A stretch of DNA of 64,000 bases from Sulfobacillus thermosulfidooxidans (GTDB taxonomy: Bacteria; Bacillota; Sulfobacillia; Sulfobacillales; Sulfobacillaceae). The notes beneath the pieces were generated by a model that was not told the origin of the DNA, made no database searches, and saw only the letters and a program-made list of their open reading frames with translations. This document shows positions 40,077 through 43,040 of the stretch, piece by piece. The position numbers and the translations under genes are program-made. The first letter of the stretch is position 1. The number at the start of each line of letters is the position of its first letter. Location of the stretch: positions 1,178,001 to 1,242,000 of the forward strand of contig NZ_LGRO01000001.1 in the NCBI RefSeq assembly GCF_001280565.1, read 5' to 3'.

Positions 40077-40781
40077 ATGGACGATAGCGAACTGCTTCAG
40101 ATTCAACAAGCTACGATTATGTGCCGTCAATGTCCTCGTCTTGTCCATTGGCGAGAACAGGTCGCCACCCAAAAGATCAAGCGGTTTCGCGATCAAGAGT
40201 ATTGGGGGAAGCCACTAGCTGGATTTGGCGATCCTCATGCTCAAGTCGTCATTATTGGTCTTGCCCCTGCTGCTCATGGTGGCAACCGTACTGGTCGTAT
40301 GTTTACGGGGGATGATTCGGCAAGTTGGCTAATCAATGCCTTATATGAGACAGGATTTGCCAATCAAAGAACAAGCGAACATAAAGATGATGGATTGGTG
40401 CTAAACCATGTGTATATCACGGCTGCAGTGCGTTGTGCGCCACCACAAAATAAACCTACGCGCCAAGAAGCTGCCAATTGTTTTCACTTTTTGGTTGAAG
40501 AGCTGGACGTTCTTAAACCTCGAATCGTAATAGTTCTCGGCCGCTTTGCTTTTGAAGCTTTTCGCCGATATCTTAATAATCGCGGCATAAACACCCATGC
40601 ACTCAGCTTTACTCATGGAAAACAAGAAACTTTGACGATTAATTCTCACACGCTTACTTTGTTAATGTCTTATCATCCTAGCCGCCAAAATACGCAGACG
40701 AAAAAATTAACCCGCGACATGTTTCTAGAGATTTTTCAACGAGCGCAAAACATTTTACATGACCAAGCCCGTTGTTATTGA
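40077..40781 (+). CDS. Uracil-DNA glycosylase, family 5 (UdgB type)
   Basis: A 234-residue [4Fe-4S] glycosylase removing uracil and other deaminated bases from DNA. The [4Fe-4S] Cys residues appear in CRQCP (residues 16-20), VRCAPP (about 121) and ANCFHFL (about 137). The active-site motif GLAPAAHGGNRTGRMFTGD (about 61-79) is that of family 5 rather than family 4, and MSYHPSRQNT (about 202-211) is the second motif. AAGGAAGG nine bases before the ATG supports the start. Such enzymes are common in thermophiles, where cytosine deamination is fast. Confidence 0.9.
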   Translation: MDDSELLQIQQATIMCRQCPRLVHWREQVATQKIKRFRDQEYWGKPLAGFGDPHAQVVIIGLAPAAHGGNRTGRMFTGDDSASWLINALYETGFANQRTSEHKDDGLVLNHVYITAAVRCAPPQNKPTRQEAANCFHFLVEELDVLKPRIVIVLGRFAFEAFRRYLNNRGINTHALSFTHGKQETLTINSHTLTLLMSYHPSRQNTQTKKLTRDMFLEIFQRAQNILHDQARCY

Positions 40782-40827
40782 AAACCCAATAATATAAGCA
40801 CTATGCACAAATAAAAATCTAATTTGT

Positions 40828-40856
40828 TTGTCAATTTATGATAGTATGATGATAAT
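40828..40856 (+). promoter_or_regulatory. Probable sigma-A type promoter of the 40959 gene
   Basis: TTGTCA (40828-40833) and GATAAT (40851-40856) are spaced by 17 bases, about 100 bases before the small gene and the NCS1 permease leader. Confidence 0.45.
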
Positions 40857-40958
40857 TATTGGCAATACAATCCATGCTTTGCGTGCGTTCACTGCTAACT
40901 TTTTAACACCTTAACCCTATGTGGCGTTATGCACAACTTCTATAAGGTAGGAGGGTGA

Positions 40959-41195
40959 ATGATGGTGGATAACTTTAGTGAATTTGAACGGTTATTGGCG
41001 CGTTATCAACTTGCATGGGAACAATGGGATTGGGCAGACACTTTGCATCAAGAGCAAGCCAACGCCGAATTAACTGCGGCTGTGACGGCTCTTAATACGT
41101 ATATACAAGAACAAAAAGGGTTGAGAGGGATCCCAACCCGTTCTCGTCATCATACAGTTCTCTATCCTCGATTTCGACGTCATCAGGTCTCATAA
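40959..41195 (+). CDS. Small hypothetical protein before the NCS1 permease
   Basis: A 78-residue protein that I do not recognise. Residues 3-55 are predicted helical and acidic (SEFERLLARYQLAWEQWDWA, TAAVTALNTYIQEQ), and the last 20 are strongly basic (RSRHHTVLYPRFRRH). It has no signal or membrane segment. AGGAGGGTGA directly before the ATG-ATG start is strong. It precedes the permease by 172 bp that contain the helix described at 41257-41360, so the two may be co-transcribed. Confidence 0.6.
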   Translation: MMVDNFSEFERLLARYQLAWEQWDWADTLHQEQANAELTAAVTALNTYIQEQKGLRGIPTRSRHHTVLYPRFRRHQVS

Positions 41196-41256
41196 AGTCA
41201 AAGACTTCTAAATTTGGCCAAGTTGTTCCAGACAAAATTAGATTAAAAACCACCCA

Positions 41257-41360
41257 TAGGCATCCTCCTTGACTTCGCGTATGATGTTTTGGGACATACT
41301 ATGTCCGCATGTGTATATTGCGCTCATCTATGCGACAGTGGTATTGAAGGAGGATGCCTA
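41257..41360 (+). promoter_or_regulatory. Leader RNA able to mask the NCS1 permease ribosome site
   Basis: TAGGCATCCTCCTT (41257-41270) is the exact reverse complement of AAGGAGGATGCCTA (41347-41360), which contains the Shine-Dalgarno of the permease. The 76 enclosed bases can form inner stems: GGACAT-ACT-ATGTCC at about 41295-41309, and TCGCGTATGATG (about 41274) with CATCTATGCGA (about 41325) allowing wobble and a bulge. The arrangement is that of a translation-controlling riboswitch or regulator-bound leader. It does not match the purine or TPP riboswitch patterns I know. Confidence 0.5.
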
Positions 41361-41367
41361 CACCGTA

Positions 41368-42801
41368 ATGGTTTCTCAAGCAAATGACGACCTGACATAT
41401 ATTAATCGAGACATTGCCCCCACAACTCCCGCGCAACGACAATGGTCACTGTATAACTATCTCAGCTTATGGATCGGCATGGCGCATAATATTCCTACGT
41501 ATCTTATGGCTGGTGGATTTATCGTTCTGGGTCTTAGTTGGTGGCAAGCGATTTTAACCGTTCTTATTGGAAACTTAATTGTTTTAATCCCCATTCTATT
41601 AAATGCTCACCCTGGGACCAAATATGGTATTCCTTTTCCTGTTTTGGCGCGAGCGTCTTTTGGCGTTATCGGTGCAGGTATTCCAGCTGTTTTGAGAGCT
41701 TTGGTTGGGGCCGGATGGTTCGGAATAGAAACTGCTATTGGAGGACAGGCCATCCAAACTTTTCTCTTACTCATCGTTCCTGATTGGAATCACTTTTCTA
41801 ACACAGGAACATTTCTGGGAATGAATTTGGGTGGATGGATTAGCTTTTTATTATTTTGGTTTCTTAACGTATGGATTATTTATCACGGTATTCAAGCGGT
41901 TAAACGGTTTGAAGCATGGGCTGGTCCTCTCGTCTTATTATTGGGTGTTGGTCTGTTAATTTGGGCTGTATCAGCTGCTCATGGCTTTGGACCGTTGCTG
42001 CAAGCACCAGCAAAAGTGCATGGTGCGGCATTTTGGGCCGTGGAAATTCCCGCGTTAACCAGTGTCGTCGGATTTTGGGCCACTTTATCTCTCAATATTC
42101 CGGATTTTACCCGCTTTGCTAAGAGTCAAAAAGCTCAAGAATGGGGTCAGGCACTAGGACTCCCGTTAACCATGACCATATTTTCGGGGATTGGTGTTCT
42201 CGTCACATCGGCGACGATTGTGGTGTTTCATCATGCCATTTCCGATCCCATTACACTCTTAGGTCATTTTCATAATGTATGGATTTTGGTCATTTCGTTA
42301 GGAGCTGTGGTCGTGGCCACGTTATCGGTCAATGTCGCGGCGAACATTGTGTCACCTGCTTATGATTTAATTCAATTATTTCCGCGGCATTTGACATTTG
42401 CACGAGGTGGCCTTATCACTGGTATTTTGGGAATACTCATGGCTCCATGGTTACTCATCTCGAATCCACATATTTATATTTTTACGTGGTTAAATGTGTA
42501 TTCGGGATTTCTTGGTCCGATCGCCGCTATCCTGATTGCAGATTATTGGGTGTTCCGTCATAGACAACTTAATGTGAAGGAACTTTATGAGCATCACGGT
42601 CAATATTTTTATCTAAAAGGCTACAATCCTCGAGCTATTTGGGCTTTAGTTGCAGGAATTATCGTTTCTCTGATTGGTAAGGTGGTACCGTCATTGAGTT
42701 GGCTCTTTAATTATTCATGGTTTGTCGGATTTATTGTGGCTTTTATTGTTTACTTAATATTGATGTATAGCCATTATGGTTCGTCTATGGCATCGAATTG
42801 A
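41368..42801 (+). CDS. NCS1 family permease (hydantoin/allantoin/uracil type)
   Basis: A 477-residue, roughly 12-helix symporter. It matches the Mhp1/PucI/FurE-like branch: YINRDIAPTTPAQRQWSLYNYLSLWIGMAHNIPTY (in parts, residues 12-46), GIPFPVLARASFG (about 90-102), GAGWFGIETAIGGQAI (about 115-130, with the Trp and Gln of the substrate site) and NIPDFTRFAKSQKAQEWGQ (in parts, about 245). The ATG at 41368 follows AAGGAGG by 14 bases, and no in-frame start is closer. The longer frame to 41269 would translate the leader helix. It imports a nucleobase, hydantoin or allantoin-like compound by inference. Confidence 0.88.
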   Translation: MVSQANDDLTYINRDIAPTTPAQRQWSLYNYLSLWIGMAHNIPTYLMAGGFIVLGLSWWQAILTVLIGNLIVLIPILLNAHPGTKYGIPFPVLARASFGVIGAGIPAVLRALVGAGWFGIETAIGGQAIQTFLLLIVPDWNHFSNTGTFLGMNLGGWISFLLFWFLNVWIIYHGIQAVKRFEAWAGPLVLLLGVGLLIWAVSAAHGFGPLLQAPAKVHGAAFWAVEIPALTSVVGFWATLSLNIPDFTRFAKSQKAQEWGQALGLPLTMTIFSGIGVLVTSATIVVFHHAISDPITLLGHFHNVWILVISLGAVVVATLSVNVAANIVSPAYDLIQLFPRHLTFARGGLITGILGILMAPWLLISNPHIYIFTWLNVYSGFLGPIAAILIADYWVFRHRQLNVKELYEHHGQYFYLKGYNPRAIWALVAGIIVSLIGKVVPSLSWLFNYSWFVGFIVAFIVYLILMYSHYGSSMASN

Positions 42802-42821
42802 CCCGTGTGGCATGTGTGAGA

Positions 42822-42854
42822 AATCTCGCGACCGATGGTTGCGGGATTTTTTTT
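42822..42854 (+). terminator. Terminator of the NCS1 permease gene
   Basis: AATCTCGCGACC (42822-42833) pairs with GGTTGCGGGATT (42837-42848) using two G-U pairs, followed by a T8 run. Confidence 0.8.
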
Positions 42855-43010
42855 GAATTTGTTAGTCATGGGTATGAAGACAAGCGAAGTTGGATATGTT
42901 GAAAGCGAGAATCAGTAATCAATTTTGAGCAATTTGGCGCATATGACTAACATTTGCTTGTAAATAGCTTTATTCGGGAGAATCACTTTGTTTTGGTGAA
43001 TTTTTAGATA

Positions 43011-43040
43011 TAGACAGCATGGTTGAGGCGGTGTTATTAT
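43011..43040 (+). promoter_or_regulatory. Probable rRNA operon promoter
   Basis: TAGACA (43011-43016), an 18-base spacer and TATTAT (43035-43040), about 125 bases before the 16S gene. The upstream 150 bases are A/T-rich and hold no gene. The transcribed leader has CCTTGAAAACT at about 43098, a sequence common in Firmicute rRNA leaders. Confidence 0.5.

Follow-up and report, generated by a model that had tools for sequence, protein, structure and literature searches.

A conserved hairpin predicted to mask the Shine-Dalgarno sequence of an NCS1 permease gene in Sulfobacillus thermosulfidooxidans and a sister species

The window analyzed here is a 64,000-nucleotide stretch of the Sulfobacillus thermosulfidooxidans genome (G000), and the features of interest all lie on its forward strand. 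A 78-aa open reading frame with a good Shine-Dalgarno (SD) sequence (40959 to 41195) sits between UDG and a gene for a 477-aa permease (41368 to 42801). Nearly all differences between this ORF and its counterpart in the sister species (G003) are synonymous, so that it is probably a gene, and possibly one that is co-transcribed. Homologues occur in several genus mates and a paralogue lies at G000:C1:2601508, with no Pfam or NCBIfam match above cut-off. The ORF is followed by a 61-nt spacer (41196 to 41256) and then by the hairpin leader of the permease.

Profile searches support the assignment of the permease to the NCS1 family made in the sequence-only reading, where TIGR00800 and PF02133 score 390.6 and 401.9 bits against cut-offs of 353.1 and 23.5, respectively. 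By sequence, the nearest solved structure is the Mhp1 hydantoin permease. In most relatives examined, the neighbors of the orthologous permease, as judged from sequence, are a carbon-nitrogen hydrolase, a dihydropyrimidine dehydrogenase pair and a dihydropyrimidinase, in many cases with an aldehyde dehydrogenase as well. In the S. thermotolerans (CP019454) cluster, PreA scores 627.6 bits (cut-off 335), dihydropyrimidinase 613.3 (393.25) and MMSDH 588.9 (448.5). Because its orthologues mostly belong to such reductive pyrimidine-catabolism clusters, the permease is a probable pyrimidine-type nucleobase importer, most likely for uracil, thymine or a related pyrimidine. The window's permease itself stands alone, outside any pyrimidine-catabolism cluster; the cluster of this kind in the same genome, at 1.86 Mb (L139, G000:C1:1860000-1876000), contains a 65%-identical permease paralogue instead.

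Comparison with two further relatives, G005 and G006, bears on how the permease came to occupy this position. The order TatD-UDG-78-aa ORF-16S is found in G006 without a permease, where homology to the window ends at 41187 and resumes at ~43030. The intervening segment (~41188 to 43029) is absent from both genomes, both of which retain the neighboring genes in order as far as the ORF, with the 16S gene seen in G006. This order and the homology gap place the permease and hairpin together in a gained segment, most simply explained by acquisition next to the rRNA operon in a common ancestor shared by G000 and G003.

The hairpin is built on an exact 14-bp complementarity, first noticed from the sequence, between TAGGCATCCTCCTT (41257 to 41270) and AAGGAGGATGCCTA (41347 to 41360). 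These arms are separated by 76 bases, and the 3' arm contains the SD sequence AAGGAGG (41347 to 41353), an assignment that draws on complementarity, the sister sequence, the predicted fold and a model of accessibility; the 5' arm, UAGGCAUCCUCCUU, is thus the anti-SD strand. For the 106-nt leader (41256 to 41361), the predicted fold has an energy of -45.8 kcal/mol (z -6.3), as compared with a mean of -26.4 kcal/mol for 200 shuffles, none of which (0/200) folds as low. The leader of the sister species gives a z of -6.6. Proceeding inward, the predicted fold leads from the 14-bp outer helix through an internal loop into an inner helix, whose 10-bp and 4-bp portions are separated by a one-base bulge (41272 to 41286 paired with 41325 to 41339), and closes with an apical hairpin that has a 6-bp stem (GGACAU-ACU-AUGUCC, 41292 to 41306). 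At least two further stems inside the outer helix had been anticipated in the sequence-only reading. The remaining apical segment (41309 to 41325) is variable, with 71% identity to the sister, and a weak extra stem at ~41311 to 41323 is present in the window and absent from the sister. For any one SD, we estimate that a 14-bp match within ~150 nt would arise by chance at ~5e-6 per gene, or ~0.02 per genome. Among 127 SD-plus-start sites scanned in the window, the next longest SD-complementary arm is 9 bp. The permease SD itself was represented in this set solely by its minus-strand mirror copy, since its own ATG is too distant.

Folding of a model transcript starting at 40863 indicates that the GGAGG core has an unpaired probability of at most ~0.002 between 37 and 60 C. 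Opening the SD is computed to cost ~16 kcal/mol (37 C) or ~14 kcal/mol (50 C), and no alternative fold with a free SD emerged. Removal of the 5' arm leaves the SD partly accessible in the fold model. Sequence and prediction together place the SD of the downstream gene within a stable helix, one of the features expected of an SD-sequestering translational leader. Between the end of the SD and the permease ATG (41368) lie 14 nt, a long spacing; in a relative (L027) it is 6 nt. Directly after the SD lies a four-codon mini-ORF, ATGCCTACACCGTAA (41354 to 41368), which is the same in both species, places its ATG at zero spacing from the SD as opposed to 14 nt for the permease, and overlaps the permease ATG with its stop (TAATG).

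Only one of the 40 relatives searched, G003, carries the leader at the same locus; its permease is 95% identical to that of the window and its permease gene 91%. All of the base pairs in the window's fold (34/34) are identical in this species, where the outer arms, both strands of the inner helix and the apical hairpin are unchanged and the inner helix again folds. Seven internal substitutions (41311, 41315, 41318, 41322, 41323, 41340 and 41346) each fall in unpaired columns (7/7; hypergeometric P ~4e-4, with the structure used to place them predicted from the same two sequences). An eighth difference, at 41256, makes the outer helix one pair longer in the sister. Moreover, a run of 52 invariant nt (41257 to 41308) directly adjoins the fast-evolving spacer, which is 65% identical. 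An invariant hairpin set against a diverged spacer, together with substitutions confined to unpaired columns, indicates selection on the hairpin region, and on this comparison the hairpin is a conserved RNA (or DNA) structure and not a product of chance.

A search for covarying homologues had been proposed as the check on the leader. The pairing is kept in the sister; only two species carry the leader and their arms are invariant, with zero pairs changed on both sides, and the leaders of orthologues have no such helix. With every pair unchanged and a structure that was itself predicted from these two sequences, the conservation is not proof of RNA pairing; two sequences with no compensatory change could reflect a DNA element. 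Coding constraint is not the explanation, as 3/7 of the internal changes affect third positions when read in the open permease frame, with no codon-position bias. An N-terminal coding extension in frame from 41269 was rejected on the same lack of bias and on an invariant stretch that exceeds coding constraint. Two other candidate reading frames were also set aside: a leader peptide from the ATG at 41309 is not conserved in the sister, and a divergent gene on the mirrored SD (minus strand, AAGGAGG-6nt-ATG) amounts to MGGF-stop, with its ATG lost in the sister.

The leader matches neither the purine nor the TPP class, as the sequence-only reading had it, nor any other family in Rfam 15, which returned nothing at gathering score and nothing at E<=5 within 40780 to 41500. 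A covariance model of the leader, trained on two sequences and reaching close relatives only, found no match in the other 152 class genomes (154 including the two species). Across 398 sampled phylum genomes, the model recovered only the window's own genome and none of the other 397; the sister, without a match in this set, was most likely not part of the sample. Exact-arm and SD-helix patterns run against 34 family genomes located the leader in the same two species, at one copy per genome. Plasmids did not yield the leader, nor did viral contigs when searched with an exact 21-base pattern. A MITE or other repeated mobile hairpin was considered and rejected, given a single copy with none elsewhere. 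Among the leaders listed for orthologous permeases (78-85% identical), none has a comparable helix over the SD, and no alignment of the leader to relatives' permease leaders clearly beats shuffles. The SD-masking hairpin is, by these sequence comparisons, real, conserved, of a known general kind and limited to two species in the genomes examined.

We lean toward the interpretation that the hairpin is a cis-acting, default-off translation leader that would block translation when both arms are transcribed. An mRNA initiated upstream of the 78-aa ORF, for instance, would contain both arms; in any such message the SD-bearing 3' arm would pair with the 5' anti-SD arm, such that ribosomes would be unable to load for permease translation. 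Permease expression would then require the hairpin to be opened, cut or bypassed. A ligand, a protein, an antisense RNA or RNase III might do so, as might a promoter located downstream of the 5' arm, and most of the rival readings considered below are other openers or bypasses of this hairpin. We infer each of the three parts of this scheme: the full-length transcript, the translation block and the regulation. A transcript that begins downstream of 41270 would be unable to form the helix. Among upstream promoter-like sites, the best (40828 to 40856, 10/12) would give a transcript that includes both arms, whereas initiation from a conserved 9/12 promoter-like site at 41257 to 41285 would fall downstream of the 5' arm and bypass the hairpin. 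These two kinds of message, along with an SD that is partly free when the 5' arm is missing, lead to two broad readings, in which the hairpin is either a regulated switch or a guard against read-through.

A guard would operate through a promoter contained within the DNA of the hairpin (such as TAGGCA-17-TATGAT, 41257 to 41285) and need no ligand: the permease's own mRNA would be translated because its internal start leaves out the 5' arm, and read-through mRNA from upstream would be sealed. We regard this as possible, if tentatively so, given that the 9/12 match lies inside the stretch that is invariant in the sister, that most of the SD is partly unpaired in a modeled RNA starting at 41292, and that the permease was inserted downstream of a probably real ORF on the same strand. 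However, promoter-like matches are common (5 found versus 2.0 expected by shuffling), the -35 of this candidate is weak, and the -10 of a second candidate (TATATT) is altered in the sister. The principle is known from transposase genes, where RBS-masking hairpins of IS10 and IS50 block read-through. The likeness is that only upstream read-through would be sealed, but the gene here is no transposase and the internal promoter is putative; a literature search on read-through guard hairpins returned no match. As for a regulated switch, the sequence-only reading had likened the element to a translational riboswitch or protein-controlled leader. The part of that proposal which stands is a real helix, preserved in the sister and able to bury the SD; no ligand, binding protein or alternative fold was found. 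Sensing of a pyrimidine or a breakdown product, by a metabolite riboswitch or by a protein-bound leader whose SD helix opens or closes accordingly, would fit a structured leader that no known RNA family matches, placed before a probable pyrimidine importer with orthologues in catabolic clusters. Against this, only two sister species carry the leader in a set of 154 class genomes, orthologous permeases do without it, the apical loop is in part its most variable portion, no alternative fold is seen, and the barrier amounts to 14-16 kcal/mol unless switching is co-transcriptional. We therefore consider such a leader rather unlikely, and judge as unlikely its lineage-specific form, in which a riboswitch or protein-responsive leader was gained at or after relocation of the permease and opens the SD in response to a pyrimidine or breakdown product. 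TPP leaders of CytX-type NCS1 permeases are translational riboswitches with SD sequestration and share with this leader the anti-SD/SD pairing before a nucleobase-type permease; they differ in that nothing in Rfam matches here even at E 5 and two species define no conserved aptamer. The riboswitch reading is a possibility that the evidence does not specifically favor, and the leader is at best a candidate riboswitch.

Other routes to a free SD, or to an invariant hairpin, were also considered. RNase III could cut the duplex, or an antisense RNA could invade it, and we find this doubtful, though the 14-bp and inner helices form a long, nearly continuous duplex. A duplex of this size is cleavable by RNase III. 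The scan of 41178 to 41420 contains no minus-strand promoter-like site from which an antisense RNA might arise. Published precedents exist for both routes. In the adhE and lambda cIII leaders, as reported in PMC5371410 with citation of earlier work, RNA secondary structure occludes the RBS and RNase III cleavage frees it; the occlusion is alike, whereas the genes described there are unrelated and cleavage is hypothetical for the permease leader. In the 5' UTR of ISPpu9 tnp, a stable structure likewise hides the RBS and translation is low, with the antisense RNA Asr9 proposed as opener (PMC8450116); that gene encodes a transposase, and no such RNA is known for the permease leader. Alternatively, the palindrome GGACATACTATGTCC (41292 to 41306) could be a repressor operator at the DNA level, with the outer repeat incidental. 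This palindrome is perfect, invariant in the sister and just downstream of a possible -10 box, but an operator leaves the exact SD arm and the invariant partner strand of the inner helix unexplained, and four other palindrome sites examined in the same genome form no obvious regulon. We take an operator to be quite unlikely, and a palindrome regulon was rejected on those sites. An RNA thermometer, in which heat melts the helix and frees the SD, would suit a helix-bound SD in an organism that is probably moderately thermophilic; the prediction that the core stays closed to 60 C makes it highly improbable.

If the proposed default-off action is true, a permease that belongs to a catabolic cluster in relatives would here, upstream of an rRNA operon, be silenced by default via a structured leader, a modest instance of RNA-based control that originated inside a single genus. 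Were a pyrimidine ligand to be found, it would represent, to our knowledge, a new riboswitch specificity, a direction to which the present evidence does not specifically point. The literature searched contained no account of an RNA element associated with this permease gene.

Two further sequence observations were made. At L151 (G000:C1:2456662), one strand reads GGACATACTATGTCG, a near match to the loop palindrome; the site lies at the beginning of an amidohydrolase-like ORF or upstream of it. In addition, a 71-nt stretch bounded by TCCTCCTT...AAGGAGGA is identical in G000:C1:2837107-2837177 (L176) and G003:C1:1785551-1785621 (L175), where it possibly belongs to two divergently arranged genes whose SDs lie on opposite strands.
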